Virus record (IMG/VR): IMGVR_UViG_3300031857_000146
Coordinates: 1 to 64,000 of that record
Direction: 5' to 3' (one strand)
Length of the DNA stretch: 64,000 bases
Source: a virus
Each line of letters opens with the position of its first letter. Positions within the stretch are counted from its first letter, which is position 1. The notes beneath the pieces are model-generated. The model worked only from the letters and a program-made list of their open reading frames with translations. It made no database searches and was not told where the DNA came from. The position numbers were made by a program, and so were the translations under genes. Shown here piece after piece: positions 27,289-50,468 of the stretch.

Positions 27289-28533
27289 ATGAAAATTTTT
27301 ATACAAGTTGCGTCTTATAGAGACCCACAGTTAATCCCAACTATAAAATCTGCATTAGAAAATGCTAAACGACCTGAAAACTTAGTTTTCGGTATTGCTC
27401 GTCAGTATCATCGCGATGATAATTTTGATAATTTAGATGAATATAGAGATGATGAAAGATTTAGAATAATTGATATTCCTTATTATGAATCTAGAGGAGC
27501 ATGTTGGGCGAGAAATCAAATACAACAAGTGTATGATAAGGAAAATTACACTCTTCAAATTGACTCACACATGAGGTTTGCTGAAGATTGGGATGATGAG
27601 ATGATTAAGATGATTAAACAACTTCAAAAGAAAGGATATAAGAAACCTTTATTGACAGGATATGTTTCATCATTTGACCCTGACAATGACCCAAGTTTAC
27701 GTGTTAACGAGCCGTGGAGAATGGCGTTTGATAGATTTATTCCTGAAGGTGCGGTTTTCTTTTTACCTGAAACAATTCCTGGTTGGCAAAATCTAACTGA
27801 ACCTGTTACCGCAAGATTTTATTCCGCTCACTTCTGTTTTACTCTTGGTAAGTTCGCTAAAGAAGTTCAACACGACCCTGAGTTTTATTTTCACGGAGAA
27901 GAGATTTCAATTGCCGCAAGAGCTTACACTCACGGATATGATTTATTCCACCCACACAAAGTTTTGATTTGGCATGAATATACTCGCAAAGGTAGAACCA
28001 AACAATGGGACGACGATAAACAATGGGTGGATAAGAATAATTTTGCTCACAAGAAAAATCGTTCTCTATTTGGTATGGATGGTGAGGAAAATATGAATCA
28101 CGGAAAATATGGTTTTGGTAAAGTTAGAAGTTTAAGAGATTATGAAAAATATTCAGGACTACTCTTTTCAAAGAGAGCCGTTCAACAATATACATTAGAT
28201 AAAGGTTATCCACCTAATCCAAATAACTTCAATTCAGAAGAAGAATGGTTAAAATCATTTACATCAGTATTCAAACATTGTATTGATATTGGGTTTACTC
28301 AAGTACCTGAAAAGGATTATGACTTTTGGGTTGTTGCGTTCCATAATGAATTAGATGAAACCATTTACAGACAAGATGCTGATAAAGGTGAAGTTGATAG
28401 AATGCTAAGAGACCCTGATGGTTATTGTAAAGTTTGGAGAGAGTTCTTAACTGATTCAAAACCTAAATATTGGGTGGTTTGGCCACACTCGGAATCTAAA
28501 GGATGGTGTGATAGAATAACAGGAAATTTATAA
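27289..28533 (+). CDS. GT60-type polypeptide GlcNAc-transferase-like glycosyltransferase
   Basis: 414 residues. The match to the Glycosyltransferase (GlcNAc) family (Pfam PF11397, CAZy GT60) is clear along most of the length: FIQVASYRDPQLIPTI at the start, ACWARNQIQQVYD near 71-83, the metal-binding LQIDSHMRFAEDWDDE around residues 89-104 (D92), and FYFHGEEISIAARAYTHGYD near 198-217. Known GT60 enzymes are eukaryotic polypeptide alpha-GlcNAc transferases: Skp1 GnT1 on hydroxyproline in Dictyostelium, and a Trypanosoma cruzi enzyme on mucin threonines. A protein acceptor is therefore plausible. The surrounding genes encode Ser/Thr-rich fibres. First gene of a five-gene glycosyltransferase operon. 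Donor and acceptor are inferred, not shown. Confidence 0.85.
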   Translation: MKIFIQVASYRDPQLIPTIKSALENAKRPENLVFGIARQYHRDDNFDNLDEYRDDERFRIIDIPYYESRGACWARNQIQQVYDKENYTLQIDSHMRFAEDWDDEMIKMIKQLQKKGYKKPLLTGYVSSFDPDNDPSLRVNEPWRMAFDRFIPEGAVFFLPETIPGWQNLTEPVTARFYSAHFCFTLGKFAKEVQHDPEFYFHGEEISIAARAYTHGYDLFHPHKVLIWHEYTRKGRTKQWDDDKQWVDKNNFAHKKNRSLFGMDGEENMNHGKYGFGKVRSLRDYEKYSGLLFSKRAVQQYTLDKGYPPNPNNFNSEEEWLKSFTSVFKHCIDIGFTQVPEKDYDFWVVAFHNELDETIYRQDADKGEVDRMLRDPDGYCKVWREFLTDSKPKYWVVWPHSESKGWCDRITGNL

Positions 28534-28536
28534 GAT

Positions 28537-29247
28537 ATGAAATTTACATTTGCTACTTTTTGTTTTGGTGAAAGATATTATAACCAAGTTAATAGATTTA
28601 TTGGTGATATCATAGAATCAGATTATAAAACAAATTTGGTTGTCATTACTGATGACCCAAGTAAGATTAATAATCAAGAATTTGTCCACACTTTTAACAT
28701 TAATGATTTTAATCCAAATTATTTGGAGTATGCTAAAAACTACTATGACTTTGATTTTTCAGTTAAAAGATATTCGTTAAGAGCTGCTTTAAGTATTGGT
28801 TTTACTAAAATCATATTAGTTGATTGTGATATGAGAGTTAACCCATCTTTTTTTAATCAAGAAAAGATTTTGGGGGCGTTTGATGAAAATTGTTTATCAG
28901 GGCCTGTAACATATAATTTTAACGAACAAGTTCATACCAATAGTGAATTAGGTAGACGATTACTTGAGTATGAAAAGTATTTCAATCATGAGGTTGATAA
29001 AGATAAGTTGGAGGTTATGCCTGAAGATTGTATTCAATACTTGAGTATTGATGAAGATAAGTTTAATAGTTTTTTAGATACTTGGGACAAGTGTATTGAA
29101 TATAAAAAAGAAAAAGGTTTAAGAAACATACCCGCTGGTAACATAGATGAGATGTGTTTCTCGGCATTATTGAATGGAATTGAAATAAAAAATAATGCTT
29201 ATAAAGCATCAAATATAATATATGCAGAACATGACAAATGGTACTAA
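28537..29247 (+). CDS. GT-A type glycosyltransferase
   Basis: 236 residues. FTFATFCFGERYYNQVNRFI at the start and KIILVDCDMRV near residues 91-101 (D96 and D98 as the metal-binding DxD) give a GT-A-type fold like that of GT8 and related transferases. The C-terminal region has NIPAGNIDEMCFSALLNGIE, consistent with an acceptor-side loop carrying an NxDE element. It lies 3 bases after the GT60-like gene, and the next gene starts inside its end. Sugar and acceptor are unknown; the context suggests sequential addition of sugars to the same target as its operon partners. Confidence 0.65.
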   Translation: MKFTFATFCFGERYYNQVNRFIGDIIESDYKTNLVVITDDPSKINNQEFVHTFNINDFNPNYLEYAKNYYDFDFSVKRYSLRAALSIGFTKIILVDCDMRVNPSFFNQEKILGAFDENCLSGPVTYNFNEQVHTNSELGRRLLEYEKYFNHEVDKDKLEVMPEDCIQYLSIDEDKFNSFLDTWDKCIEYKKEKGLRNIPAGNIDEMCFSALLNGIEIKNNAYKASNIIYAEHDKWY

Positions 29248-30085
29248 AATAATTTCGGCGATTTATGAATTAAAATATGTTGAAGGAATTAATAGTGAGA
29301 GATATAAAAATTTTTCATTATTGGTTGCAACAATTAAAAACATAATTTATCCTGAATATCGTTACGTAATTTATACTGACCAAAATTCATATGATAAGTT
29401 CAATTTAAAGTATGAATTTAATTTTCCAAATGTTGAATTTAAATTTAAAGAATTAAATACTTCTGAAACTTGTGAATTAATTGATAGAATTAGAACTCAA
29501 GAATTATCGGGTGGAATTAACTATGATAGAATTTATTGTGTTAACAATTATTTAGAAGTTGTTTTAAATAAACTTAAATTCTTAATTGATGAATCACATG
29601 ATTGTGATAATATCTTTTGGATTGATGCTGGTTTGATTGGAACGTCTTGTCATGATGGGTGGAGAGATTATATGGCTCCACTAATTAATTCAAAAAACTT
29701 TTTGGATAAGGTGGTTGATAAAATAAACCAACACGGGTTTATTCATTTGAAAGGTAATTCAATTGTGATGAACTATGAAACAGTTTCTAAATTCAATCAA
29801 CTATTTGGTGTTGAATTAAAGGTTGTTCCTGGATGTCTATTCGGTGGAACATCAGAAAAAGTTAGACATATTTTAAATGGATATTTAGACATTTTTAATC
29901 AATACTTAACAACACATAACCAACTTATTAGTGAACAAGAAGTTCTCACGGCTATTACAGGTAAACATTCGGATGAATGTCACGCTTTTGAATTTGGTGA
30001 TTGGTTAGACTTACAAAAAGCGTTTTTAGAAATTTTAGACATTTATGATGAAACAAAATATGTAAGGGAGAAATGTTATGTTTAG
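29222..30085 (+). CDS. HtrL/YibB-like glycosyltransferase
   Basis: 287 residues from ATG 29222 (26-base overlap with the previous gene); ATG 29231 in frame is an equally possible start. The pattern fits the HtrL_YibB family: ISAIYELKYVEGINSERYKN at the start, YRYVIYTDQNSYDKF, and NIFWIDAGLIGTSCHDGW with D135 in the position of the metal-binding acidic residue. Family members are putative sugar transferases found in bacterial surface-glycan loci. The N-terminal domain of the protein at 30638 has the same FWIDAGL motif, so the two are distant paralogues. The end overlaps the next gene by 8 bases. Confidence 0.65.
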   Translation: MQNMTNGTKIISAIYELKYVEGINSERYKNFSLLVATIKNIIYPEYRYVIYTDQNSYDKFNLKYEFNFPNVEFKFKELNTSETCELIDRIRTQELSGGINYDRIYCVNNYLEVVLNKLKFLIDESHDCDNIFWIDAGLIGTSCHDGWRDYMAPLINSKNFLDKVVDKINQHGFIHLKGNSIVMNYETVSKFNQLFGVELKVVPGCLFGGTSEKVRHILNGYLDIFNQYLTTHNQLISEQEVLTAITGKHSDECHAFEFGDWLDLQKAFLEILDIYDETKYVREKCYV

Positions 30086-30641
30086 TCTTAATATTGTTTG
30101 TACTTCAATCGGGAGAGAAACACTGCCAAGATTAATTGAGTCATTCAAAGACCAATTAGACCCAACAGATATTTTTACAATAATCTCTGATATTAATCAC
30201 GACTTTGTTTCAGAAGTATTATCAAGATATGAGTTTAAATTCAAAGTTAATCATATATTAAATCAAGGGGAACAAAAGTGGAAATACGGACATCCATTAA
30301 TTAATGAGAACATTAATTCATTAGAAGGTGATTTTATAATGTTTGCCGATGATGATGATAGATACACTGAAGAAGCATTCAAAGTAATTAAAGAAAGTGT
30401 TAAAGATAAAAACAAGTTATACATATTCAAACACAATTGGTTAGGTGATGTTAATTGGAAATTAAAAGATTTCACAAGAGGTAATGTAGGTAAATGTATG
30501 GGTGTGATTCCAAACACACATAATTTACCGATGTTTCAAGAAGATGTTTTTGGAGATGTTATTTTTTATGAAGAGATAGGACAAATGTTTGAAAGTGAAT
30601 TTGTTGATTATATAATCTATAAAGTTAGAGATACAGAATGA
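30078..30641 (+). CDS. Short GT2-like glycosyltransferase
   Basis: 187 residues, short for a GT2 enzyme. It has the family layout: LNIVCTSIGRETLPRLIESF strand-helix at the start, then GDFIMFADDDDRYTEEAFKV with D91-D94 as the nucleotide-sugar/metal site. The C-terminal acceptor domain is small (NVGKCMGVIPNTHNLPMFQE). It overlaps the upstream gene by 8 bases and the downstream one by 4 (ATGA), so translation is coupled across the operon. Substrates unknown. Confidence 0.72.
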   Translation: MFSLNIVCTSIGRETLPRLIESFKDQLDPTDIFTIISDINHDFVSEVLSRYEFKFKVNHILNQGEQKWKYGHPLINENINSLEGDFIMFADDDDRYTEEAFKVIKESVKDKNKLYIFKHNWLGDVNWKLKDFTRGNVGKCMGVIPNTHNLPMFQEDVFGDVIFYEEIGQMFESEFVDYIIYKVRDTE

Positions 30642-32308
30642 GTAATATTACATTAGTTACAGGATTGTGGAATATTGGTAGAGAAAACCTTGAAGAAGGT
30701 TGGTCTCGTTCTTTTTCACATTATTTAGAAAAATTTGAACAACTATTAAAGGTTGAGGAAAACTTAATAATTTTTGGTGAAAAAGAATTAGAGGATTTTG
30801 TTTGGGAAAGAAGAGACCAAAGTAATACTCAATTTATTTTAAGAGATAAGAGTTGGTTTGTTGAAAATGACTTTTATAATAAGATACAAGAAATTAGAAA
30901 TAACCCTGAATGGTATAATCAATCAGGTTGGTTAAAAGAATCGACACAAGGTAGATTAGAAATGTATAATCCTCTTGTTATGTCTAAAATGTTTTTGTTA
31001 AACGACGCAAGGATTTTTGACAGATTTAATTCAGAGTTTTTATTTTGGATTGATGCTGGACTTACAAATACAGTTCATCCAGGATATTTCACACACGATA
31101 AGGTTTTAAATAATTTAAGTAAGTATATTGATAAGTTTACATTCGTTTGTTTCCCATATGACGCTAATAATGAGATACACGGATTTTCATACCCAAAGAT
31201 TAACGAATGGGCTGAAGATGATGTAAAGAAAGTTGCTCGTGGAGGATTTTTTGGTGGACCGAAAGAAACCATATCACAGATGAATGGTGAATATTATAAT
31301 CTATTGAATGATACACTATCGAGTGGGTACATGGGAACTGAGGAATCAATATTTTCAATAATGGTTTATAAGTTAAAAGAATATATAAATTATTTTGAAA
31401 TCGATTATAACGGTTTATTTGGAAAATTCTTCGAAAATTTAAAAGATGATGTTTTAGTTAAAAAGACAGAGTTTGTTAAAATCCAAAACGATTTAGATAT
31501 TGATAAAGTTGCGTTATATGTAATAACATTTAATTCACCAAAACAATTTGAAACATTAATTCAATCCATGATTGAATACGATAGAGATTTTTTAGATAAA
31601 CCAAAAAAGTTTTTATTGGATAACTCAACCGACCTATCAACAACCGAAGAATATTTAAGACTTTGTAAAGAATATGATTTTGAACATATTAAAAAAGATA
31701 ATATAGGTATTACAGGTGGAAGACAATGGATTGCTGAACATTTTGATGAAACAGGGTTGGACTATATGTTATTTTTTGAGGACGACATGTTTTTTTACTC
31801 ACAAAAAAATGAAGTGTGTAGAAATGGGTTTAATAGATATGTAAGTAATCTATATCAGAAAAGTTTAGAGATAGTTAATAAAGAAAACTTTGATTTCCTA
31901 AAATTAAATTTCACAGAATTTTATGGTGATAATAGTACACAATGGAGTTGGTATAATGTCCCACAAAATTTCAGAGAACAACATTGGCCAAAAAACCCAA
32001 GATTACCACAACATGGTTTAGACCCAAACGCACCAAAAACAAAGTTCAACGAGATAAAAACACATAAGGGTATTCCATATGCGTCAGGGGAAATTTATTT
32101 ATGTAACTGGCCAATTATTCTTTCTAAAAGTGGGAGTTATAAATGTTATTTGGAGACAAAATATCAACACCCATATGAACAAACTTTGATGTCTCACAAC
32201 TTCCAAAACACAATTAAAGGTAAGTTAAAACCTGGTATTTTACTACTCACACCTACCGAACATGATAGATTTGAACATTATGATAGTAATTTAAGGAAAG
32301 AATGTTGA
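30638..32308 (+). CDS. Two-domain glycosyltransferase: HtrL-like plus GT2-like
   Basis: 556 residues. Domain 1 (1-285) is HtrL/YibB-like: LVTGLWNIGRENLEEGWSRS, EFLFWIDAGLTNTVHPG with D139, then GGFFGGPKETI. Domain 2 (about 290-556) is a GT2-like transferase: VALYVITFNSPKQFETLI, KFLLDNSTDLSTTEEYL, KDNIGITGGRQWIAEHF and LFFEDDMFF near 381-389 as the acidic site. A fusion of two transferases suggests that two sugars are added in succession. It is the last gene of the glycosyltransferase operon, and a TATTTAT motif follows within 10 bases of its stop. The acceptor is unknown. Confidence 0.72.
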   Translation: MSNITLVTGLWNIGRENLEEGWSRSFSHYLEKFEQLLKVEENLIIFGEKELEDFVWERRDQSNTQFILRDKSWFVENDFYNKIQEIRNNPEWYNQSGWLKESTQGRLEMYNPLVMSKMFLLNDARIFDRFNSEFLFWIDAGLTNTVHPGYFTHDKVLNNLSKYIDKFTFVCFPYDANNEIHGFSYPKINEWAEDDVKKVARGGFFGGPKETISQMNGEYYNLLNDTLSSGYMGTEESIFSIMVYKLKEYINYFEIDYNGLFGKFFENLKDDVLVKKTEFVKIQNDLDIDKVALYVITFNSPKQFETLIQSMIEYDRDFLDKPKKFLLDNSTDLSTTEEYLRLCKEYDFEHIKKDNIGITGGRQWIAEHFDETGLDYMLFFEDDMFFYSQKNEVCRNGFNRYVSNLYQKSLEIVNKENFDFLKLNFTEFYGDNSTQWSWYNVPQNFREQHWPKNPRLPQHGLDPNAPKTKFNEIKTHKGIPYASGEIYLCNWPIILSKSGSYKCYLETKYQHPYEQTLMSHNFQNTIKGKLKPGILLLTPTEHDRFEHYDSNLRKEC

Positions 32309-32316
32309 TTTTTTGA

Positions 32317-32323
32317 TATTTAT
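32317..32323 (+). promoter_or_regulatory. TATTTAT motif before second fibre block
   Basis: Motif 14 bases upstream of ATG 32338, directly after the glycosyltransferase operon. Candidate late promoter element. Confidence 0.4.
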
Positions 32324-32337
32324 TTAAAAAACTATTA

Positions 32338-32706
32338 ATGGAATTTTTTATTAACAAAGGTGCAACACTACCTGTTCTTAAAATGCAAGTGGTTAAAGAT
32401 GGTATTGCTGACATAACAGAGTTCATGTCAATAATCGAAAACTCGTTGATTTACTTTTCCATGATAGATGTTAAAACGGGAGCATATAAGATTCTGAATA
32501 AGAAAGGAGGGTTTGTTGAGAAGACATTTGTTGACCCAAACGCTGAGACAGAATATTATGTTTATTATAAATTCACTTCAAGTGATACAAGTAGAGAAGG
32601 TCTTTATGAAGGGGAGTTTGTTTTTATTACTGATACAGGAACTTACATTTTACCAATCAGAGAAAAACTAACGATAAAAATTGGTAATAGTTACGTATCT
32701 ATCTAA
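32338..32706 (+). CDS. Small baseplate/fibre beta-sandwich protein
   Basis: 122 residues. The start EFFINKGATLPVLKMQVVKD matches the start of the next gene product (EWFIKKNSTLPVFQVEVSKN), and both continue with a YYVxYxFTS segment and end with EKLxIxI. The pattern resembles the N-terminal immunoglobulin-like domain of upper baseplate proteins (BppU type), which anchors receptor-binding proteins, but I recall this only at the fold level. This copy has the domain alone; the next gene has it fused to a linker and a C-terminal domain. The next start lies one base after this stop. Confidence 0.6.
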   Translation: MEFFINKGATLPVLKMQVVKDGIADITEFMSIIENSLIYFSMIDVKTGAYKILNKKGGFVEKTFVDPNAETEYYVYYKFTSSDTSREGLYEGEFVFITDTGTYILPIREKLTIKIGNSYVSI

Positions 32707-32707
32707 T

Positions 32708-33913
32708 ATGGAATGGTTTATTAAGAAAAATTCAACGTTACCAGTTTTCCAAGTTGAGGTATCAAAAAACGGAAGAAGTGATTTTGGTTTAGATGAAAAT
32801 ATTTCGGGTAATACAATTTTAATTTCGGTATATGACGAAGTTAATAAAAAATATATTGTTGCATCCAAAGAATGTTATATTACAACAAGTGCGTCTACAG
32901 TAAATCCTTTAGATATTACTTATTATGTGAATTATCAATTCACAAGTAGAGAAACAAAAAATGAAGGTAAGTTTTTAGTTCAGTTTTTAAAACAGTCATC
33001 TCAGGGGATTGTTATCATACCGTTACCTGAAAAATTATATATAAGTGTTTTAAGTAGTTTTAGTTTAAATTCTTACTCTTATCCGACTAATAATCCTTAC
33101 ATTATTGATAGACCATGTTGTAATGCGCCGGCTCTACCAGCGACACCAACACCGACACCATCAATTACCCCAAGTGTTACACCAACAATATCTCTTACAC
33201 CAAGTGTTACACAAACTGTTACACCAACAGTTACTACAACACCAACATTTACTCCAACACCATCTATTACAAAACCTTTGTATTATGCTTACGTATTTGC
33301 AGAACCTCAAGATTCTTCTGCAGGTGGTTCGTTGTTTGGATTAGGAAGTTATATGTATTACTTAGCGGATGGTGTAACACCTGACACTAATGTTAGTTGG
33401 TACGGATGGGGTAATTCAGGAGCGCTTCCATTACCAACAAGTCCAAATTACAGTTATATGATGAACAAATACGCATCATACTCAGGATTTACAGGTGGAA
33501 CAGGAAACTTTGTACAACCTACAAACTTAAAAGGTGCTTTAAATCAGTTCCCAAGTACGATTAAAGATAGTTTTGGATGTTTGATTAACCAATACACATT
33601 TGAAACTATTGAAGTTAATAATAGTGATATTAATACTAGTTTACAGTACATGTATACGATTTGGATACCACTTGATGGTGTCGGAGGAACTTTGAATAAT
33701 ATGAGTGTAAATGTGGGCTATCAGTCACAACCTTGTGACTTTGACATTTTAGCAACTCCTGACCCTAAAATTTCGGTTGGGGATGTTATAACCTCAGGTG
33801 GTTCAATACCTGCGGGAACATATAGAATTTTATACTTATCTAATGACGGATTGTTACCACCAAAACTTCCTGATAAAAATAATTACTACTTCAAAGGGGT
33901 ATATAAAACCTAA
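32708..33913 (+). CDS. Modular adhesin: BppU-like domain, Pro/Thr linker, C-terminal domain
   Basis: 401 residues from ATG 32708; an in-frame ATG at 32681 lies inside the previous gene and is rejected because the paralogous N-terminus begins MEWFIKK. Residues 1-125 duplicate the preceding 122-residue protein. A short Cys pair (RPCCNAP) and a [12 protein letters not shown] linker (about 145-190) follow. The C-terminal domain (YYAYVFAEPQDSSAGGSLFG, then LGSYMYYLADGV) is a paralogue of the C-terminal domain of the protein at 19480. The head and the tail domain are therefore each shared with a different neighbour. Virion attachment through the head is inferred. Confidence 0.65.
   Translation: MEWFIKKNSTLPVFQVEVSKNGRSDFGLDENISGNTILISVYDEVNKKYIVASKECYITTSASTVNPLDITYYVNYQFTSRETKNEGKFLVQFLKQSSQGIVIIPLPEKLYISVLSSFSLNSYSYPTNNPYIIDRPCCNAPALPATPTPTPSITPSVTPTISLTPSVTQTVTPTVTTTPTFTPTPSITKPLYYAYVFAEPQDSSAGGSLFGLGSYMYYLADGVTPDTNVSWYGWGNSGALPLPTSPNYSYMMNKYASYSGFTGGTGNFVQPTNLKGALNQFPSTIKDSFGCLINQYTFETIEVNNSDINTSLQYMYTIWIPLDGVGGTLNNMSVNVGYQSQPCDFDILATPDPKISVGDVITSGGSIPAGTYRILYLSNDGLLPPKLPDKNNYYFKGVYKT
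33142..33276 (+). repeat. Pro/Thr/Ser linker coding repeat
   Basis: ACACCAACACCGACACC-type repeats encode [12 protein letters not shown] units joining the two domains of the protein at 32708. Confidence 0.85.
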
Positions 33914-33941
33914 AAAAAGATAATTATTAGTAAGTAACAAA

Positions 33942-36900
33942 ATGGCAATACCGTATCAAAATCCAATAAGTGCGTCCCAAATAACAGGACCTTTCAGTGT
34001 AGCAAGAACAAGTCCATACGGAACCAACTTTAACGTCTTAAATGTTGGGGGTTGGCAAGAAGCCGCTTACCTTACTAATTTAGGGTTGTCATTTAGTGGG
34101 AAGGGACAACAACAACTTAGTGCAAATACTATCCCAATTAATATCACAATTGGTAATGGTACATTTATGCCGACTTATTTAACCCTTAACTCTGATAATT
34201 TTTCATCAGGTAGAAGAAGGTTAGGTATGATTGTTTGGGTTAATGAAACTGAAACGGCATACCAATTTCAAATAGACAACTATAACGATTTATGGGACGC
34301 TGCGGTAAGTGCTAATTCTGTTACTCAATTATCTTATGAGACAATTGTAAAAAATAATACACCTGAAGGACAGGCATTTATTAACGCTTGGACAGGTTCA
34401 ACAATTGAAGGTGTTAGTGGAACATCAAGAAATGATGCGAGATGGAGAGTTTTTGCTCAAGGAACAGAATTAACTGGTGGTACGTTCTTTTCAGGTACAA
34501 GCACTTTAGAATTATATAATAGTGATGGTACCGTTGTAAGTGTTACAGGTATTACCGTTTCAGGTGGTGATGGTACTAGCGGTACGTCAGGGAGTTCAGG
34601 TTCCGCCGGTTCTTCAGGAAGTTCGGGTACATCGGGTAGCTCTGGCTCAAGTGGTAGTGCTGGAACAAGTGGTATAAACGGTGTTGATGGTGCTAGTGGG
34701 ACATCTGGTACATCTGGCTCAAGTGGATATAGTGGTAATGACGGTGCTAATAGCGGTAGATGGTTATGGACATCATCTATAGTTACCCCAAATGACCCTA
34801 ACCAAGGGTTTTTTGCAACAAACATTAATGAGTTATGTTCAGTAAATTATATATCTATTGCAGATAATGATGTTTATAATATTAATTATGATAATTGGTT
34901 AACCGCAATTCAAGATTCTATCAATTTAAGTCAAGAAGTTTATTTACAGATTGAAGAAGTTGGTAATTTTCCTATATTAGGTATTTACAAAATTTTAACT
35001 ATAGTTAATAATGGACCTTATTGGGATATTACTTTAGACATACCTTTTACTTGTAATGGTAATTTAACAAGTGGTAGCACATATACATTTTCTTGGATTC
35101 ATAATGGAGCGGATGGTTCTTCAGGAAGTTCTGGTTCATCAGGTGAATCAGGAAGTTCTGGTACAAGTGGTAGTTCAGGAACATCAGGAAGTAGTGGTAG
35201 TGCTGGAACCTCAGGTTCAAGTGGTACCTCAGGTTCATCAGGAACAAGTGGTTCTTCAGGTAGCTCAGGTTCATCTGGAACTTCAGGTACGTCTGGCTCA
35301 TCAGGTAGTTCAGGCTCAAGTGGCTCATCGGGCTCAAGTGGTTCTTCGGGAAGTGTTGGAACTTCAGGAACATCTGGTTCTTCAGGTTCAAGTGGTTCTT
35401 CGGGAAGTGTTGGAACTTCAGGAACATCAGGGTCTTCAGGCTCTAGTGGTACATCAGGCTCTTCAGGTTCTAGTGGGTCAAGTGGTATTACTGGTAGTTC
35501 AGGTACATCAGGAAGTTCGGGCTCAAGTGGTTCTTCAGGAAGTACAGGTTCAAGTGGTACATCGGGTTCTTCGGGTTCTTCGGGTTCTTCGGGTTCTTCA
35601 GGCTCATCAGGGTCATCAGGTTCAAGTGGGTTAACAGGTTCTTCTGGTACATCAGGTAGTGCTGGTTCGTCAGGTTCAAGTGGAAGTACGGGTTCATCAG
35701 GAAGTTCAGGAATATCAGGTTCAAGTGGAAGTTCTGGAAGTAGTGGATTAACTGGAAGTTCAGGTACTAGCGGAACGTCAGGTAGCACAGGTTCTTCAGG
35801 CACTAGTGGTAGTTCAGGAACGTCAGGTAGCACAGGTTCTTCGGGTTCATCGGGTAGTTCAGGTTTAACAGGTTCATCTGGAACATCTGGAAGTTCTGGT
35901 TCAAGTGGAAGTACGGGGTCATCAGGTAGTACAGGAACATCAGGTTCATCAGGCTCAAGTGGCAGTGCTGGTTCATCAGGCTCAAGTGGAATAAGCGGTA
36001 GCTCAGGAACATCAGGTTCAAGCGGAAGTGCTGGTAGCTCAGGTTCAAGTGGTAGCTCTGGCTCTGCTGGAACTTCAGGTTCAAGTGGAACTTCAGGTTC
36101 AAGTGGGACATCAGGAAGTAGTGGAAGTACAGGTTCATCAGGAAGTTCTGGTGTTAATGGTTCTTCAGGGACATCAGGTAGTACTGGTACATCTGGAACT
36201 TCTGGTAGTTCAGGTTCTTCAGGAAGTACAGGGTCTAGTGGTAGTAGTGGAAGTTCAGGACTAACTGGCTCTTCGGGAACATCAGGTTCTTCTGGTTCCT
36301 CAGGAAGTTCAGGTTCAAGTGGTATAACAGGTAGTTCAGGAACATCAGGTTCAAGTGGAAGCACAGGCTCTTCAGGAAGTTCTGGTTCTGCAGGAACATC
36401 AGGTTCAAGTGGAAGTACAGGCTCTTCAGGAAGTTCTGGTAGTGTTGGAACATCAGGTTCTTCGGGTTCAAGTGGTAGTTCTGGTTCTGTTGGTACTTCA
36501 GGAACTGCTGGTACAAGTGGCTCTTCAGGAAGTGCGGGGTCAAGTGGTAGTAGTGGTAGTTCAGGTAGTGTTGGAACATCGGGTTCTTCAGGTTTGAGTG
36601 GTGTTGACGGTACTAATGGTACTAGCGGAACTTCAGGTAATAGTGGTAGCTCAGGTACATCGGGGACAAGTGGTTCTTCAGGTTCTGCGGGTACATCAGG
36701 TAGTTCAGGTAGTTCAGGAACATCAGGTTCTGTGGGTACCTCAGGTAGTTCAGGTTCATCCGGAAGTACAGGTTCAAGTGGAACGTCTGGTTCTAGTGGT
36801 AGTGTCGGTACATCAGGGTCTTCAGGCTCGTCAGGTTCAAGTGGAAGTTCTGGAATAACAGGTTCTTCTGGTACATCTGGAACTTCAGGTTCTAGTGGTT

Positions 36901-39938: not shown

Positions 39939-39960
39939 TATTAAAATATATAAAAACATG

Positions 39961-39995
39961 AACCATCACATAATAATAAATGTGATGGTTTTTTC
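39961..39995 (+). terminator. Strong rho-independent terminator after fibre 2
   Basis: A perfect 10-bp stem AACCATCACA/TGTGATGGTT (39961-39970 and 39981-39990) with an A/T-rich 10-base loop, followed by a T-run. It closes the transcript of the 1998-residue fibre. Confidence 0.92.
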
Positions 39996-40004
39996 ATTTT
40001 AGGA

Positions 40005-40033
40005 TTGACAGAATACTTTTCAAGTATATTTAT
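40005..40033 (+). promoter_or_regulatory. Promoter candidate before fibre 3
   Basis: TTGACA (40005-40010) is followed after 16 bases by TATTTAT (40027-40033). It lies between the terminator and ATG 40089. A purine-rich GGAAAAAAGGAAAG (40070-40083) just before the start is the clearest Shine-Dalgarno-like sequence in this block. The 56-base leader is the longest seen for any TATTTAT motif here. Confidence 0.5.
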
Positions 40034-40088
40034 TAACAAATAAACATAGAAGAATTTTCTTTTGGATAGGGAAAAAAGGAAAGAATAA

Positions 40089-43000
40089 ATGGCAAATGAG
40101 TTTGTTGCGAGAAGGGGTATAATATCCTTAGGTGGTATAACATATCCACAAGTAACAATTGGTAGTACATATACGATTACTGATGACGACTATATGGTCG
40201 CTGTCTCTGGTGGTACTTTTACTATTAATTTACCTACTGCGGTAGGTGTGCAGGGTAAATTATATGTAATTAAAAATAATGGTACCGGTACAATAACTGT
40301 TGACCCAAATGGTAGTGAAACTATAGATGGGAGTACTACGGTTACATTAATTCAGAATGATTCAATTCAAATAACTAGTGATGGTACAAATTGGACATCG
40401 TTAAGTTATAATTTTAATACAATTATAGAAAATTATGTAACTGTTGGATTAAGTGGTAGTTCAACAGACTTTAATTCCGTTAAAGATGCGGTAGATAGTA
40501 TAACAGGTGCAACTCCAAATAGTACTTGGGAAGTTAGAGTTTATCCTGGTTTATATATTGAAGATACCATCACAATGAAATCATGGATTACGGTTAGAGG
40601 TGGTGATAGTACAACAACTATCCTACAAGCAAGTAATCCTAATAATAGTGTTTTCATCATGGCCGACCAATCAATGGTTCAGGACATGCAAATTCAAGGT
40701 TCATCAGGAACAAGTGCGTCGTCTATTGTTTATTCATCATCGACAACTCCTCAAACTAATGCAATTGCATATGTTGAAAACGTAAGATTTGGTACAAACT
40801 ATACTCACGCAAAAGTTGTTGGAACAGGTGGTGGAAACTGTATCATACAGTGTTCTAACGTTAAGTATGGTGGATATCCATTTACTATAGGTTTCTATGT
40901 TACAAATGATGGTAGTGGTATTGGTAGGATGCAACTTAGAAACGTTACATCTACTAATGGAGGTGTTAGTACGACATCAGGATTAATATTTGCAAAGGCA
41001 GACCAACCAGGTTGTACGTTTATTGTTAACGGATGTTTATTAACAAAGGCTGTTGGGGTTGCGGCAGGAACAGGATTTTGGGTTGAAAACGGAGGTTCGT
41101 TAAGATTAACGGCAGTTAATTTCCAACGATGGGTAACTGCGATATATGCTCCAAACACGGGCTCAGCTCCAAGTATATTTGGTTCGGCTCTTAACTTTGA
41201 AAATAATACTCAAGACGTATTAGTTGAACATCCAACTGCAACAGGTAAAATTGAAGGTACTGATACATTCTTAAAAACTACAATACCGATTGACGCTCCG
41301 TTATATGAAGTTAACCAAGACCCAAGAGTTATTACGGTCGCTAAAAAAGGTGGTGACTTTACATCTATTAAGAGTGCAGTTGATTGGATTACAGGTTCGT
41401 CAATTAATAATCGTTTTTTGGTTAGAGTTGGACCTGGGTTATTTTCTGAGGGACAAATTAATTTAACTGGAAAACCGTATGTGAGTATTGAGGGTAGTAA
41501 TATTCAAACTACACAAATTGTCCCAACGGGTTCTACTCAACATATTATTAATATAGGTATTAATAACGAAGTATCGTTTTTAACATTATCAGGTGCTGGT
41601 GCAGGATATGCGGCAATTCACTGTGATGATATCGGTGATTTTGGACAAGCTCATAAGATTTCAATATATGATTCAGATATTGGTGTATGGATAAAATCAT
41701 CAACACAAGATACCAAGTTCTATGGTGAATATGTCGATGTTAATGGTGAGTTTAGTTACGGATTAAAAGTTGAAGCAACTAATGGGTTTCAGGCGTTGGG
41801 TAATATGGAAAACTATTTCTTGTTCCCAACATATGATGATGTTATTGGTAATAGCGGTACTGGCTCTGGAACACTTTTATCGTTCAACGGGTGTACTTTT
41901 GAAGGTGCATTACTAACAGGTTCAACCGCATTTGTGTTATCAGACTCTGCGGTATTGGAAGGAACAGGTATGGATATTCAAGAATGGGATATTGCCGTTT
42001 ACGTACCAAATACAGGTGGTGGGCCTACTTTTAGAATGGTTGGTACCATGATTCACGATTCAATTACTAATGACTTTTTAATTGAAAACGCATCGACAAT
42101 AGGTAGATTTCAGGGTATTTCAGACCACTCAAAAATAATTACAGCAAGTGAGGACTTTTATTGGAACTTCTTGGATGATACGGATGGTGAGAACGACGTA
42201 ACAAGAAAGTTATCGGTTACTTTCGCAGATGGAACACATACAGATGCTTCTACACTGATTTTTCAAGGTAGTCCAATGGGATTATTAAGTGGTGGTACAA
42301 TTACTATTGTTAGTGGTAGAACAATCAATACATCTGCAGGATTTGGATATTTAGCTGACCAAACAGATAATAGTATTATTAAAAGATATGATTGGGTTGA
42401 TGGTCAGTTAACATTAAGTGCTGAAACTGATAACTACATTTATATTTCAAATAACGGAACGTTAGTTGCAAATTCAGGATTACCTGACCCATTCTATAAT
42501 ATTATTATGGGTCGAGTAGTTACAAACGCGACAGGTATTGAATTGATTGATGCTGCGCCATACAACGCTCAACATACTGCAAATTTATTATCAAGCTTTA
42601 ACAGACAAGCGTTAGGTCCAGTTTATTCAACAGGTTCTATTGTTACAACAGGTTCAACATCATTTACTCTTGATGTGACATCTGGTAGTTATTGGTTATC
42701 AGAAAATAATTTTACACCAACAGGTGGAACACCAATAAGTTTTACACAATATTGGAACAATGGTACAAATTGGACAAGAAGTGCAACTACGTTTGTAAAT
42801 AATTTTCAATATAATAAAAATGAAAATTCATTATCAGCATTAACCACATCGTATTATACTAAACATACATTATATGTTGTCGGTGAAGGTATTAATGAAG
42901 AATACTTTTTAGTTTTAGGTCAACAAGAATATGCGACTCTTGTTGAAGCTGAGGCGGCTCCATTACCATTACCTCCTGATTATTTTACGGATGGTGTGGT

Positions 43001-46000
43001 ATCAATTGCGTCTGTTTATATCCAACAAGGATTTGGAGGTATTGTTCAAATTGAGGATATTAGACCTGTAATTGGTTTTAAGTCAAGTGGTGTTAACGCG
43101 ACATCGGTACACGGTAATTTGTTAGGTTTAACTGCTGATGACCACCAACAATATCTTTTAGTTGATGGTGGAAGACAAATGACAGGTGATTTAGGATTAG
43201 GAGGGAATGATTTATTTAATGTTAATCAAATAACTGCATCGGCAACAACAACAAATGAATTAACAATTGCTCAAATTACTCAAGATGATAATCAAACAAA
43301 ATTTGTTGTTGTAGATAATACAGGTAAAACTTATTATAGAACAGGTGGTGCATCGGGTTCTGCAGGAACATCAGGTTCAAGTGGAAGTTCGGGAAGTGCA
43401 GGTTCTAGTGGAACATCAGGTTCTAATGGTAGTTCAGGAAGTTCAGGTTCTGCCGGTACTTCAGGTAGTAGCGGAACATCAGGTTCATCTGGAAGTTCAG
43501 GGTCTTCAGGTAGTTCAGGCTCAACAGGGTCGAGAGGTACTTCAGGGACATCTGGAAGTTCTGGTACATCAGGTTCAGTAGGTACAAGTGGTACCTCAGG
43601 CTCTAGCGGTAGTTCAGGGTCTTCTGGTACATCTGGAAGTGCTGGTTCATCTGGCTCTTCAGGTAGTAGTGGTTCATCTGGTTCTAGTGGAACATCAGGT
43701 TCTTCAGGTACTAGCGGTAGTTCAGGAACTTCAGGTTCTAGTGGAAGCTCAGGTTCGGGAGGAAGTTCGGGGTCATCAGGTTTTGGTACATCGGGGTCTG
43801 CTGGAACATCAGGTTCAAGTGGTAGTAGTGGTAGTGCTGGAACATCGGGTAGTTCAGGTTCTTCTGGTTCAAGTGGTAGTACAGGGTCTTCAGGAACATC
43901 AGGTTCAAGTGGTACATCAGGAAGCTCTGGCTCAAGTGGAAGTAGTGGGAGTTCGGGGTCATCAGGTGTTAGTGGTTCTTCAGGAACATCGGGTACAAGT
44001 GGTTCTAGCGGAAGTTCGGGTAGTTCTGGTTCGTCAGGTAATACTGGCTCAAGTGGAACGAGTGGTTCATCAGGGACATCTGGCTCAAGTGGTAGTGCTG
44101 GTTCATCTGGCTCAAGCGGAAGTTCTGGTACATCAGGTTCTTCTGGAACAAGTGGTTCATCAGGTAGTAGCGGTTCATCAGGTTCAAGCGGAAGTTCAGG
44201 TAGTACAGGTTCAAGAGGTACGAGTGGTAGTTCAGGAACATCTGGCTCAACAGGTACTTCAGGAAGTTCAGGTTCTTCTGGCTCAAGTGGTAGTACGGGT
44301 TCTTCAGGAACTAGTGGTAGTGTGGGAACAAGTGGGTCATCAGGAAGCTCAGGGTCATCTGGTTCTAGTGGTAGTTCAGGAACATCTGGCTCAACAGGAA
44401 CTTCAGGGTCATCAGGTTCTAGTGGAAGTTCAGGCTCATCAGGTGTTAGTGGAAGTTCAGGAACATCAGGTTCAAGTGGGTCTTCAGGTAGTTCGGGTTC
44501 ATCAGGTATTACAGGGTCAAGCGGAACATCGGGTTCAGTAGGGACAAGTGGCTCTTCGGGAAGTGCTGGTTCATCAGGTTCATCTGGCTCGTCAGGAACT
44601 TCTGGGTCATCAGGTACAAGTGGTTCATCAGGAAGTTCGGGTAGTTCAGGGTCTAGCGGAAGTGTTGGAACAAGTGGTTCATCTGGTTCAAGTGGTAGCA
44701 CAGGTTCATCAGGTAGTAGTGGTTCAAGTGGAACATCAGGTTCTAACGGTAGTTCAGGAACATCGGGAAGTGCTGGCTCAAGCGGTAGTTCAGGTTCATC
44801 AGGTTCATCTGGAACTTCAGGTTCTAATGGTAGTTCTGGTACATCAGGTTCTTCTGGTTCAAGTGGTAGTTCAGGGTCAAGTGGAAATACAGGTTCATCG
44901 GGTACTAGTGGTTCGTCAGGAACATCTGGTAGTTCTGGTTCAAGTGGTTCGTCAGGGTCAACTGGAAGTTCAGGTTCATCAGGTAGTACGGGTTCAAGAG
45001 GAACTAGTGGTTCATCAGGAACATCAGGAAGTTCAGGTACATCAGGTTCTAACGGAAGTTCTGGTACATCAGGTAGTTCTGGTTCTAGTGGAAGCTCAGG
45101 TTCATCAGGTTCAAGTGGAAGTAGTGGTTCTAGCGGTAGTGCTGGTACTTCAGGTTCAGTAGGTACAAGTGGTTCTTCAGGAAGCTCGGGTAGTTCAGGT
45201 TCAAGCGGAAACACTGGCTCATCCGGTACTAGTGGAAGTTCTGGAACATCAGGTTCTTCTGGCTCAAGTGGTTCGTCAGGGTCTAGTGGAAGCTCAGGTA
45301 CATCGGGTAGTAGTGGAACATCAGGGTCTTCAGGCTCAAGTGGAAGTTCAGGTAGTACAGGTTCATCGGGTTCTTCGGGTAGTTCGGGTTCAAGTGGAAA
45401 TACAGGTTCTTCAGGGACTAGTGGTAGTTCAGGTACATCAGGAAGTTCGGGTTCATCAGGTAGTAGTGGAAGTACTGGCTCAAGTGGTACTGGAGGTTCT
45501 TCAGGAACATCAGGTTCTTCTGGTTCAAGTGGAAGCTCAGGTTCTTCGGGTAATAGTGGTTCATCAGGAACTTCTGGGTCAAGTGGAACATCAGGTTCTT
45601 CTGGCTCTTCAGGTAGTTCGGGGTCTAGCGGAAGTGCTGGCTCAAGTGGAACAAGTGGTTCTTCTGGAACTTCAGGTTCTTCTGGCTCAAGTGGGTCGTC
45701 AGGTTCGTCAGGTAATACTGGAAGTAGTGGAACAAGTGGTTCTTCTGGAACTTCAGGAAGCTCAGGTTCAAGTGGAAGCTCAGGGTCATCAGGTAGTACG
45801 GGCTCAAGAGGAACAAGTGGTTCTTCAGGTACATCAGGGACTAGCGGTTCTTCTGGTTCAAGTGGAAGTTCAGGAACATCTGGTTCTTCGGGTACTTCAG
45901 GGTCAAGTGGTTCTTCAGGAAGTAGCGGAAGTTCGGGTAATACAGGTTCATCAGGAACAAGTGGAAGTTCAGGAACATCGGGTTCAAGTGGAAGTGCGGG

Positions 46001-47999
46001 TAGTTCAGGTTCAAGTGGAAATACAGGTTCATCGGGTACTAGTGGAAGTTCTGGAACTTCAGGGAGCTCAGGTTCAAGTGGTAGTTCAGGTTCATCAGGT
46101 ATTACTGGAAGTTCTGGCACATCAGGTTCTTCTGGAACTAGCGGTTCATCAGGTAGTGCTGGTTCAAGTGGAAGTTCGGGTAATACAGGTTCTTCGGGTA
46201 CAAGTGGTAGTTCTGGAACTTCAGGCTCTTCAGGAAGTTCAGGTTCAAGTGGGAGTTCAGGTAATACAGGTAGTTCTGGTACATCAGGTTCATCAGGAAC
46301 AAGTGGTTCTTCAGGAAGTAGTGGGTCTTCAGGCTTAACAGGAAGTAGTGGAACTAGTGGTAGTTCAGGGACTTCAGGTTCTTCAGGAAGTTCAGGGTCA
46401 TCAGGAAGTGCTGGCTCATCAGGAACTAGTGGTTCATCAGGAACTTCAGGTTCAAGTGGGTCATCAGGTTCAAGCGGAAGTTCTGGTTCTTCAGGAAGTA
46501 CAGGTTCAAGAGGAACTTCAGGTTCATCAGGTACATCAGGAACTAGCGGTTCTTCAGGTAGCACTGGTTCAAGTGGTTCATCGGGTTCTAGTGGAACATC
46601 GGGTTCATCGGGTACAAGTGGTTCTTCAGGTTCTAGTGGAAATACTGGTTCTTCGGGAACGTCTGGCTCATCAGGAACTAGTGGTTCATCAGGAAGTAGT
46701 GGTTCTTCAGGTATTACAGGAAGTAGTGGAACTAGTGGTTCATCAGGAAGTAGTGGTAGTTCAGGTTCTTCAGGTATTACAGGAAGTAGTGGAACTAGTG
46801 GTAGTTCAGGAACATCAGGTAGTAGTGGTTCATCAGGAAGTTCTGGTTCATCGGGTATTACAGGTAGTAGCGGAACGTCAGGTTCTTCGGGTACCTCTGG
46901 CTCAAGTGGAAGTGCTGGGTCATCAGGAAGTTCAGGTTCAGGTTCTTCGGGGACTAGCGGTTCATCAGGAACATCTGGTTCGAGTGGCTCGTCAGGTTCA
47001 TCAGGTTCAAGTGGGTCTAGCGGCTCTTCGGGAACATCAGGTTCATCAGGCTCAAGTGGAAGTTCAGGTTCTTCAGGAAGTACAGGGTCAAGAGGTACCA
47101 GTGGTTCATCGGGAACTTCAGGTTCTAGCGGTACAAGTGGAACTTCAGGAAGCGCTGGGTCATCGGGTAGTTCTGGTTCAAGTGGAACAAGTGGTTCTTC
47201 AGGAACATCAGGAAGTGCTGGCTCATCAGGTAGTTCTGGTTCGTCGGGTATCACAGGAAGTAGTGGAACAAGTGGTTCTTCAGGAACATCAGGAAGCGCT
47301 GGGTCATCGGGAAGTTCTGGTTCAGGTTCATCAGGAACTAGCGGTTCTTCGGGAACATCAGGAAGTGCTGGGTCATCAGGAAGTTCAGGTTCAGGTTCTT
47401 CAGGAACAAGTGGTCTAGATGGTATTAGTGGAACATCTGGTTCAAGTGGGTCATCAGGTTCAGGTTCTTCAGGAACATCTGGTTCGGGTTCAAGTGGGTC
47501 ATCAGGAAGCTCTGGTTCATCGGGTAGTACGGGTTCAAGAGGAACTAGTGGTTCATCGGGAACTTCAGGGTCATCAGGTACTTCAGGTTCATCGGGAACT
47601 TCAGGGTCAAATGGAAGTAGTGGTACTAGCGGTTCATCTGGAACATCAGGTACTTCAGGTAGTTCGGGTTCATCAGGTAGTTCAGGTACTGCTGGTTCAT
47701 CAGGAACATCAGGTTCTGGTTCAAGTGGTTCTTCAGGTACTGCGGGTTCATCGGGGACTTCAGGTTCTGGCTCAAGTGGTTCTTCAGGTACCGCGGGTTC
47801 ATCTGGGACATCAGGTTCTGGTTCAAGTGGTTCTTCAGGTACTGCTGGTTCATCAGGAACATCAGGTTCTGGTTCAAGTGGTTCATCAGGAAGTTCTGGT
47901 TCAGGTTCATCAGGAACAAGTGGTGTTGATGGAGCGGCGGGTGGTTCGTTCACTTTAGGACTTGTTTATACAACTGCAAACAATTTTAACTATATATAA
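40089..47999 (+). CDS. Giant tail fibre 3, double beta-helix and collagen-like tract
   Basis: 2636 residues. Residues 15-115 match an inner module of fibre 1 (YMVAVSGGTFTINLPTAVGV versus YMVDITGGTFNVQLPTAVG). Two tandem pectate-lyase-like right-handed beta-helix domains follow (about 115-410 and 415-700), each opening with a DFxSxKxAVDxITG motif and an xVRVxPGLxxE strand. Such domains are typical of phage depolymerases and fibre shafts; catalytic residues cannot be assigned. Near 1017-1050 is the common fibre motif ADDHQQYLLVDGGRQMTGDL. From residue 1087 to about 2618 the protein is Gly-Ser-Ser/Thr triplets. Only 17 residues (ending NNFNYI) follow, so there is no distal knob domain, unlike fibre 2. 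A separate tip protein encoded downstream may cap it. Confidence 0.82.
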   Translation: MANEFVARRGIISLGGITYPQVTIGSTYTITDDDYMVAVSGGTFTINLPTAVGVQGKLYVIKNNGTGTITVDPNGSETIDGSTTVTLIQNDSIQITSDGTNWTSLSYNFNTIIENYVTVGLSGSSTDFNSVKDAVDSITGATPNSTWEVRVYPGLYIEDTITMKSWITVRGGDSTTTILQASNPNNSVFIMADQSMVQDMQIQGSSGTSASSIVYSSSTTPQTNAIAYVENVRFGTNYTHAKVVGTGGGNCIIQCSNVKYGGYPFTIGFYVTNDGSGIGRMQLRNVTSTNGGVSTTSGLIFAKADQPGCTFIVNGCLLTKAVGVAAGTGFWVENGGSLRLTAVNFQRWVTAIYAPNTGSAPSIFGSALNFENNTQDVLVEHPTATGKIEGTDTFLKTTIPIDAPLYEVNQDPRVITVAKKGGDFTSIKSAVDWITGSSINNRFLVRVGPGLFSEGQINLTGKPYVSIEGSNIQTTQIVPTGSTQHIINIGINNEVSFLTLSGAGAGYAAIHCDDIGDFGQAHKISIYDSDIGVWIKSSTQDTKFYGEYVDVNGEFSYGLKVEATNGFQALGNMENYFLFPTYDDVIGNSGTGSGTLLSFNGCTFEGALLTGSTAFVLSDSAVLEGTGMDIQEWDIAVYVPNTGGGPTFRMVGTMIHDSITNDFLIENASTIGRFQGISDHSKIITASEDFYWNFLDDTDGENDVTRKLSVTFADGTHTDASTLIFQGSPMGLLSGGTITIVSGRTINTSAGFGYLADQTDNSIIKRYDWVDGQLTLSAETDNYIYISNNGTLVANSGLPDPFYNIIMGRVVTNATGIELIDAAPYNAQHTANLLSSFNRQALGPVYSTGSIVTTGSTSFTLDVTSGSYWLSENNFTPTGGTPISFTQYWNNGTNWTRSATTFVNNFQYNKNENSLSALTTSYYTKHTLYVVGEGINEEYFLVLGQQEYATLVEAEAAPLPLPPDYFTDGVVSIASVYIQQGFGGIVQIEDIRPVIGFKSSGVNATSVHGNLLGLTADDHQQYLLVDGGRQMTGDLGLGGNDLFNVNQITASATTTNELTIAQITQDDNQTKFVVVDNTGKTYYRTGGASGSAGTSGSSGSSGSAGSSGTSGSNGSSGSSGSAGTSGSSGTSGSSGSSGSSGSSGSTGSRGTSGTSGSSGTSGSVGTSGTSGSSGSSGSSGTSGSAGSSGSSGSSGSSGSSGTSGSSGTSGSSGTSGSSGSSGSGGSSGSSGFGTSGSAGTSGSSGSSGSAGTSGSSGSSGSSGSTGSSGTSGSSGTSGSSGSSGSSGSSGSSGVSGSSGTSGTSGSSGSSGSSGSSGNTGSSGTSGSSGTSGSSGSAGSSGSSGSSGTSGSSGTSGSSGSSGSSGSSGSSGSTGSRGTSGSSGTSGSTGTSGSSGSSGSSGSTGSSGTSGSVGTSGSSGSSGSSGSSGSSGTSGSTGTSGSSGSSGSSGSSGVSGSSGTSGSSGSSGSSGSSGITGSSGTSGSVGTSGSSGSAGSSGSSGSSGTSGSSGTSGSSGSSGSSGSSGSVGTSGSSGSSGSTGSSGSSGSSGTSGSNGSSGTSGSAGSSGSSGSSGSSGTSGSNGSSGTSGSSGSSGSSGSSGNTGSSGTSGSSGTSGSSGSSGSSGSTGSSGSSGSTGSRGTSGSSGTSGSSGTSGSNGSSGTSGSSGSSGSSGSSGSSGSSGSSGSAGTSGSVGTSGSSGSSGSSGSSGNTGSSGTSGSSGTSGSSGSSGSSGSSGSSGTSGSSGTSGSSGSSGSSGSTGSSGSSGSSGSSGNTGSSGTSGSSGTSGSSGSSGSSGSTGSSGTGGSSGTSGSSGSSGSSGSSGNSGSSGTSGSSGTSGSSGSSGSSGSSGSAGSSGTSGSSGTSGSSGSSGSSGSSGNTGSSGTSGSSGTSGSSGSSGSSGSSGSTGSRGTSGSSGTSGTSGSSGSSGSSGTSGSSGTSGSSGSSGSSGSSGNTGSSGTSGSSGTSGSSGSAGSSGSSGNTGSSGTSGSSGTSGSSGSSGSSGSSGITGSSGTSGSSGTSGSSGSAGSSGSSGNTGSSGTSGSSGTSGSSGSSGSSGSSGNTGSSGTSGSSGTSGSSGSSGSSGLTGSSGTSGSSGTSGSSGSSGSSGSAGSSGTSGSSGTSGSSGSSGSSGSSGSSGSTGSRGTSGSSGTSGTSGSSGSTGSSGSSGSSGTSGSSGTSGSSGSSGNTGSSGTSGSSGTSGSSGSSGSSGITGSSGTSGSSGSSGSSGSSGITGSSGTSGSSGTSGSSGSSGSSGSSGITGSSGTSGSSGTSGSSGSAGSSGSSGSGSSGTSGSSGTSGSSGSSGSSGSSGSSGSSGTSGSSGSSGSSGSSGSTGSRGTSGSSGTSGSSGTSGTSGSAGSSGSSGSSGTSGSSGTSGSAGSSGSSGSSGITGSSGTSGSSGTSGSAGSSGSSGSGSSGTSGSSGTSGSAGSSGSSGSGSSGTSGLDGISGTSGSSGSSGSGSSGTSGSGSSGSSGSSGSSGSTGSRGTSGSSGTSGSSGTSGSSGTSGSNGSSGTSGSSGTSGTSGSSGSSGSSGTAGSSGTSGSGSSGSSGTAGSSGTSGSGSSGSSGTAGSSGTSGSGSSGSSGTAGSSGTSGSGSSGSSGSSGSGSSGTSGVDGAAGGSFTLGLVYTTANNFNYI
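43347..47943 (+). repeat. Long Gly-Ser-Ser/Thr tract of fibre 3
   Basis: About 1530 residues of Gly-X-Y, proline-free as far as I can see. A loose super-repeat (N/I/S)TGSSGTSGSSGTSG is visible. Arginine occurs only in STGSRGTSG, seven times (near 43530, 44213, 44997, 45806, 46508, 47092 and 47536). Near the C-terminal end the triplet register is broken by SGSGSSG steps. Confidence 0.92.
47685..47888 (+). repeat. Four tandem 51-bp repeats that break the Gly-X-Y register
   Basis: Four direct copies (starting at 47685, 47736, 47787 and 47838) encode GTAGSSGTSGSGSSGSS, 17 residues each. Because 17 is not a multiple of three, each copy holds one two-residue Gly-X step. Copies 1 and 4 are nearly identical in DNA. 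Confidence 0.88.
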
Positions 48000-49558: not shown

Positions 49559-49570
49559 TAAGTATATAAT

Positions 49571-50458: not shown

Positions 50459-50468
50459 AAATATAACT

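Follow-up and report, generated by a model that had tools for sequence, protein, structure and literature searches.

A GT60-type glycosyltransferase cassette among phage virion genes co-occurs with threonine-proline linkers and may glycosylate them

The stretch of DNA analyzed here (hereafter the window) comprises 64,000 bases out of a 65,229-base virus record, IMG/VR IMGVR_UViG_3300031857_000146, which probably covers only part of the genome of a large tailed phage. PHROG profile matches identified baseplate wedge genes at its left end, for which the closest isolates were Flavobacterium phages, at 27% identity. SprB repeats, known from Bacteroidota adhesins, scored over the cut-off in the product of 17272-19452 and under the cut-off in that of 51625-53655. 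Given these nearest baseplate-wedge isolates and the SprB repeats in two products, the sequence suggests that the host of this phage belongs to the Bacteroidota. Encoded among the virion genes of the baseplate/fibre region, and sitting between fibre-type genes, is a cassette of transferase genes at 27289-32308 on the plus strand, where the placement of the open reading frames by the first-pass annotation was reproduced.

That annotation had counted five glycosyltransferase genes with six domains; two of the genes are firm, and the other three are putative. The first gene (27289-28533), the proposed initiator, encodes a GT60-type polypeptide glycosyltransferase, and the fifth (30638-32308), the proposed chain extender, encodes a two-domain transferase whose N-terminal domain matches HtrL_YibB above the Pfam cut-off (E 2.7e-13) and whose C-terminal half is weakly TAGT-like. 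Pfam and NCBIfam profile searches returned no match for genes two and three. Gene two (28537-29247) is a putative glycosyltransferase by its DCD motif only, and gene three (29222-30085) is a putative glycosyltransferase with a single weak match to a PHROG of unknown function (E 0.0076), its best match being the HtrL-fusion ORF (26-28%) in four loci (L030, L034, L050, L069). The GT2-like product of gene four (30078-30641) falls just below the Pfam cut-off (22.9 bits vs 23.3). Immediately downstream on the same strand is a gene for a small protein (32338-32706), which shares about 30% identity with a portion of the homologues of the product of 32681-33913; most relatives have homologues of both genes on the downstream side of the cassette.

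The earlier description of hundreds of Thr-Pro linker residues was borne out by 431 Thr/Pro-rich residues across four products, all of which carry proposed acceptors. On the plus strand, these are the protein of 19480-20484 (79-residue linker at 19693-19929), a Laminin_G_3/concanavalin-like protein at 24576-26423 (68 residues, 25542-25745), and the protein of 32681-33913 (51 residues, 33134-33286). The fourth, at 56550-59006, is a beta-propeller protein of lactonase/YNCE type with three Thr-Pro tracts (233 residues), encoded by a long minus-strand gene amid plus-strand genes. Threonine makes up 78% of Ser+Thr in the linkers of the window, 86% over 80 relatives, and 79% in XacN1 and 65% in RAS14 for the stretches read. 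The ORF homologous to 19480-20484 carried a Thr-Pro linker in 39 of 39 loci. The PTVT repeats of Dictyostelium are a parallel to such linkers that we do not use as evidence, since PTVT appeared in none of the papers listed.

The second repeat type consists of Gly-Ser/Thr triplets in fibre-like proteins, again on the plus strand: short tracts in the product of 20494-24606, a long tract at 35106-39479 in the fibre of 33942-39938, and a tract region at 43347-47720 in the fibre of 40089-47999. These contribute 168, 1518 and 1488 residues (3174 in all), in keeping with the roughly 3100 first reported, and the described near-absence of proline and charge also held: the tracts of the two long fibres lack proline altogether and contain 13 charged residues. 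Because several codons are in use for each of Ser, Gly and Thr in the 33942 gene, its tract is not a DNA microsatellite. Antisense ORFs of 1461 aa (35099-39484, minus strand) and 1539 aa (43334-47953, minus strand) overlie the tracts, and we take them for an artefact of the codons used there. On the 3′ side of the fibres, 48650-51347 encodes three tandem glycine-rich proteins alike in size and composition, the first of which matches PF21722 (Gly_rich_2); they are possibly additional adhesin or fibre tip proteins.

The assignment of the lead enzyme to the GT60 type was confirmed by a match to PF11397 (GlcNAc) with an E-value of 2.7e-68 and 231 bits against a cut-off of 21, spanning profile positions 95-349, plus 2-44. 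Within its D-S-H motif (residues 92-94), D92 and H94 were conserved across 30 divergent GT60 rows (97% threshold), and we take this D-x-D/H motif to be metal-binding. A structure model derived from 31 sequences, with a pLDDT of 75 that drops below 50 at residues 125-156, has a predicted GT27-like GT-A fold (Z 17.3, rmsd 3.8, 262 aligned). Foldseek ranked TarS first and GalNAc-T2 second, with TM-scores of about 0.4; in a re-examination of its candidates by VIA-align 2, rows 1-28 were animal or Toxoplasma polypeptide GalNAc-transferases (Z 17.3 to 14.9), with other GT-A enzymes following from Z 14.9 down. As modelled, the enzyme is nearest to those initiating mucin-type O-glycosylation in animals. 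According to passages of two papers (PMC8724618, PMC3188802), mucin-type O-alphaGlcNAc of Dictyostelium and T. cruzi is initiated by the GT60 family, and passages of a third report T. cruzi activity measured on a Thr-rich, Pro-flanked peptide (PMC3769586). For the two-domain enzyme, Foldseek placed LH3, LARGE1 and mimivirus R699 near the top; since the TM-scores were 0.35 or lower, these matches were not taken as a sign of kinship to collagen-modifying enzymes. PDB sequence searches using both enzymes as queries gave no match up to E 1. A literature search found no paper joining GT60, bacteriophage and glycosyltransferase, and one on mucin-like/threonine/proline/tail sheath gave nothing relevant among the matches listed.

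Relatives of the window GT60 are encoded by 399 IMG/VR stretches, from which the best 80 were studied together with the isolates XacN1, CM1 and RAS14. We scanned 50 records, hand-picked from 82 GT60 loci for size and variety, for both repeat patterns, bearing in mind that all IMG/VR records may be fragments. The Thr-Pro pattern was present in 49 of the 50 whole records, the sole exception being the 51-kb record of L046, and every one of the 17 GT60 clusters at 85% identity included at least one positive record; at the level of single loci, 72 of 82 had Thr-Pro-rich tracts in their ORFs. As a control, the reversed Thr-Pro pattern gave 0-3 matches per GT60 record, and up to three in some records picked for Gly-Ser tracts. 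For the reverse direction, at least 120 stretches were picked per pattern and, among the matches listed (80), records of at least 40 kb were tested for GT60, giving sets of 38 for Thr-Pro (one duplicate record removed) and 33 for Gly-Ser, alongside a neutral set of 17 (14 records of at least 40 kb and three of 38-39 kb). Among these listed matches, GT60 was detected in 15 of the 38 contigs picked for Thr-Pro only, in none of the 33 picked for Gly-Ser tracts, and in none of the 17 neutral ones (Fisher tests for the Thr-Pro-picked set: 1.8e-5 vs Gly-Ser-picked, 2.2e-3 vs neutral, and 4.9e-7 vs both pooled, values that overstate independence because the counts cover related phages). Counts per locus among the matches listed agreed with those per record, with GT60 in 8 of 120 loci picked for Thr-Pro, 0 of 119 picked for Gly-Ser and 0 of 120 neutral loci. 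The GT60s of the 15 positive contigs fell into 14 clusters at 85% identity, four of them being only 31-39% identical to that of the window.

These counts bear on the substrate named by the first-pass annotation, in which the cassette enzymes have the Gly-Ser/Thr tracts of the two long fibres as their target. The fibres do adjoin the cassette in the window and offer thousands of Ser/Thr residues; however, the co-occurrence of PF11397 with such tracts that it had proposed as a check did not materialize, as the tracts were found in just 16 of the 50 GT60 records and in 7 of the 17 clusters, and were absent from the other 34 records, including the complete genomes of XacN1 and RAS14. Within 10 kb of GT60 in the IMG/VR loci, a Gly-Ser tract was seen only in the closest kin (L003-L013 and L016), apart from a single 18-residue run in L079. 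The tracts are also Ser-dominated (Thr only 17% of Ser+Thr), and the record of L588, a relative that keeps the 19480 gene, has its GT60 some 60 kb away from the homologue of 20494-24606, far from the baseplate/fibre region. With none of the 33 Gly-Ser-picked contigs among the matches listed encoding GT60, we rejected these tracts as the main driver of its presence and regard them as a very unlikely substrate. Since Gly-Ser tracts do not track GT60 and Thr-Pro linkers do, the analogy drawn with glycan-stabilized collagen is unsupported as a reason for the enzyme's presence.

Association with the Thr-Pro linkers is looser when viewed from the linker side. Among the matches listed, 23 of the 38 Thr-Pro-picked contigs, some of them large, had no GT60, and 19 of 120 Thr-Pro-picked loci had no Thr/Pro-rich ORF by a protein-level criterion, so some picks may be false. 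The pattern also appeared in 8 of 50 control records, of which two (G102 and G115) look spurious, leaving six credible cases without GT60. Because Thr-Pro tracts occur without GT60, either the linker can do without this enzyme or a different one acts on it. One 202-kb viral record (G069, the record of L203) carries 364 Thr-Pro sites with PF11397 absent; it may have another initiating enzyme or unglycosylated linkers, or may be a fragment. In a 735-kb uncultured record, GT60 was absent and the one Thr-Pro match was apparently spurious. The flanks of 80 baseplate-wedge loci contained neither trait, but this control carries little weight, many of these flanks being short and the cassette lying 23 kb from the wedge in the window. 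Among records with a homologue of 19480-20484, GT60 was present in 17 of 35, and in 9 of the 11 that are at least 70 kb (35 of 39 new loci were tested at record level, four short loci being left out).

Among 50,697 phage records, matches to GT60 at E 1e-5 were confined to XacN1, RAS14 and CM1, with one extra match at E 10 that is at chance level. The XacN1 enzyme (ORF334) is 46.8% identical to that of the window and its HtrL fusion 42% identical; nine phage records matched the HtrL fusion, with at least 80% coverage only in the same three phages. We tested CM1 for Thr-Pro sites and GT60, and XacN1 and RAS14 for Gly-Ser tracts as well. In a set of 14 jumbo isolates, the three with GT60 have 20-21 Thr-Pro sites each, and the 11 without GT60, which have a related tail sheath and were hand-picked among 60 matches listed of 2553, have none. 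The isolate closest to the window by baseplate wedge, Flavobacterium phage immuto, gave no GT60 match and neither repeat pattern. When the baseplate wedge of the window was used as query, XacN1, RAS14 and CM1 were not found at E 1e-5, which indicates that the linkers and both enzymes are common to two rather different virion lineages. At least nine ORFs of XacN1 carry Thr-Pro tracts; ORF369, 370 and 372 among them adjoin the tail sheath gene and its completion gene, and the distance from GT60 to the nearest Thr-Pro ORF seen is about 12 kb in XacN1 and about 9 kb in RAS14. Proteomics of XacN1 virion proteins reported "at least two glycoproteins" (PMC5852040), which passages of that paper do not assign to Thr-Pro ORFs; these passages name neither the GT60 family, nor an acceptor motif, nor a Thr-Pro ORF. 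Besides GT60, XacN1 has another annotated transferase, ORF328.

The isolates also help to weigh the idea that Thr-Pro linkers are plain spacers and that their association with GT60 is the inherited history of a few phage lineages. Linkers lacking the enzyme in 23 of 38 picked contigs among the matches listed speak for this idea, as does relatedness within the sets, yet both traits recur in the XacN1-type phages that the wedge search missed and in contigs with GT60s as distant as 31-39% identity, and both are missing from the 11 tail-sheath relatives of XacN1 and from immuto. On balance, we find inherited history an unlikely explanation, and the linkers remain the favored acceptors.

Gene order around the enzyme is consistent across relatives at its two ends and variable in between. 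An HtrL fusion lies downstream of GT60 in 77 of 82 loci, about 2-9 kb away, and the HtrL profile PF09612 was detected in 11 of the 15 Thr-Pro-picked contigs with GT60 and 0 of the 23 without it (among the matches listed), as well as in 0 of 12 other control contigs. The genes between the two vary, and nine of 20 representatives matched a family, comprising two GT10 fucosyltransferase-like genes, GT25, Glyco_transf_7C, Glycos_transf_1-like and PLOD-like genes, and three methyltransferases, among them FkbM and rhamnosyl O-methyltransferase types; the XacN1 interior holds a carbamoyltransferase. The PLOD-like gene (L019, 13943-14650) has its match in the glycosyltransferase domain of PLOD (PF25342, E 7e-9), which is of collagen-modifying type, and the Gly-Ser pattern is absent from its record. 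In L568, a relative keeping the 19480 gene, the island is absent at this place: the homologue of 20494-24606 is followed by that of 51625-53655 (positions 10562-14520 of L568), without transferases and long fibres, an arrangement that is the empty form of a hypervariable island.

Phage-encoded transferases are generally assumed to act on DNA or on surface glycans of the host. Such swappable interiors resemble glycan loci, bacterial HtrL/YibB genes sit in LPS gene clusters, and GT25, one of the inner gene types, is described as belonging to LPS biosynthesis, all of which would suit a cassette that alters host surface glycans for receptor masking or superinfection exclusion. Against this, GT60 is a polypeptide family and polypeptide transferases head the structural matches; the 20 inner-gene representatives gave no match to a flippase, polymerase or acyltransferase (11 of them matched nothing), and the Thr-Pro association would be left unexplained, making host glycans a distinctly unlikely target. 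Glycosylation of phage DNA appears highly improbable. It is hinted at by the C-terminal half of gene five, which scores 18.1 bits against the TAGT profile and matches phrog_842 (glucosyl-HMC transferase) over about 80 residues at 25.5 bits, but both matches are weak and partial, the former being below the cut-off of 27.5, and the linkers would again go unaccounted for. In addition, XacN1 had its genomic DNA mapped by BssHII, NaeI and SpeI according to passages of PMC5852040; mapping with three restriction enzymes argues weakly against heavy glycosylation of its DNA.

Self-modification of phage proteins, the part of the original proposal that survives the loss of its Gly-Ser/Thr substrate, is the best-supported idea because the GT60 family acts on polypeptides, the modelled structure best matches mucin-type initiators, and glycoproteins are reported for XacN1, which carries GT60. 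We therefore consider it fairly likely that the block 27289-32308 is an island with which the phage carries out mucin-type O-glycosylation of Thr-Pro linkers in the cytoplasm, probably giving its own virion a coat of sugars. As a soluble enzyme of the host cytoplasm, GT60 would move HexNAc (probably GlcNAc) from the host UDP-sugar pool to linker threonines in proteins from the tail and fibre region of the phage itself, much as characterized GT60 enzymes act on protist mucin domains rich in Thr. Extension of the first sugar would fall to the two-domain HtrL-type enzyme, and the inner genes that differ between phages (fucosyl-, GT25-, and galactosyl-like transferases, methyltransferases, carbamoyltransferase) would decorate the chain. 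Protein domains may thus be separated by mucin-like spacers that are stiff, resist proteases and expose a swappable glycan surface. Whether the two lineages, one a group of large Bacteroidota-type aquatic phages and the other the Xanthomonas/Stenotrophomonas jumbo phages, share a mobile, capsule-locus-like mucin-type island, in which a fixed GT60 initiator and a fixed two-domain extender enclose an exchangeable middle setting the 'serotype' of the Thr-Pro spacers, we judge to be an even call.

Several known systems offer comparisons. Dictyostelium Gnt2, T. cruzi TcOGNT-2 and the cytosolic Skp1 Hyp-GlcNAc-transferase are all members of GT60. Mimivirus and prophage collagen-like proteins and Riftia cuticle collagen are Gly-x-y fibres, some of them glycosylated; such fibres are common to these systems and the window, but GT60 here does not track Gly-Ser tracts. 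The next step of the Skp1 pathway is taken by a bifunctional enzyme, a position that the two-domain partner in the window may likewise occupy. Like the alpha-GlcNAc-transferases named above, the phage enzyme belongs to the PF11397 family (PMC8724618 for their membership) and would have Thr-rich acceptors. Unlike eukaryotic GT60s, such as the mucin-type one in the Dictyostelium Golgi, it is encoded by a phage, would work in the bacterial cytoplasm, and has a different two-domain partner. Glycans on phage virion proteins have a precedent in mycobacteriophages, for which phage-encoded transferases were proposed (Freeman et al. 2023, as cited in passages of PMC12619734); there, the glycans sit at the C-terminal ends of capsid and tail tube subunits, whereas the window combines GT60 with Thr-Pro linkers. 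XacN1 is a further comparison, with GT60 and the HtrL fusion as in the window and glycoproteins reported in passages of PMC5852040, although it has no Gly-Ser tracts. As in mucin-type O-glycosylation, the initiating enzyme co-occurs with Thr/Pro-rich domains (49 of 50 records; the converse, 15 of 38 among the matches listed).

With Thr-Pro linkers as a protein acceptor recognizable in sequence and PF11397 as a recognizable initiator, sequence data could serve to predict glycosylated virions for many uncultured phages, and such predictions are testable on cultured phages and deposited mass spectra. If the proposed mechanism is true, it would constitute a virus-borne, cytoplasmic prokaryotic counterpart of eukaryotic mucin glycosylation, and a simple, soluble mucin-type O-glycosylation in the bacterial cytoplasm would be a useful tool. 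It would also bear on the occurrence of mucin-type initiation outside eukaryotes.
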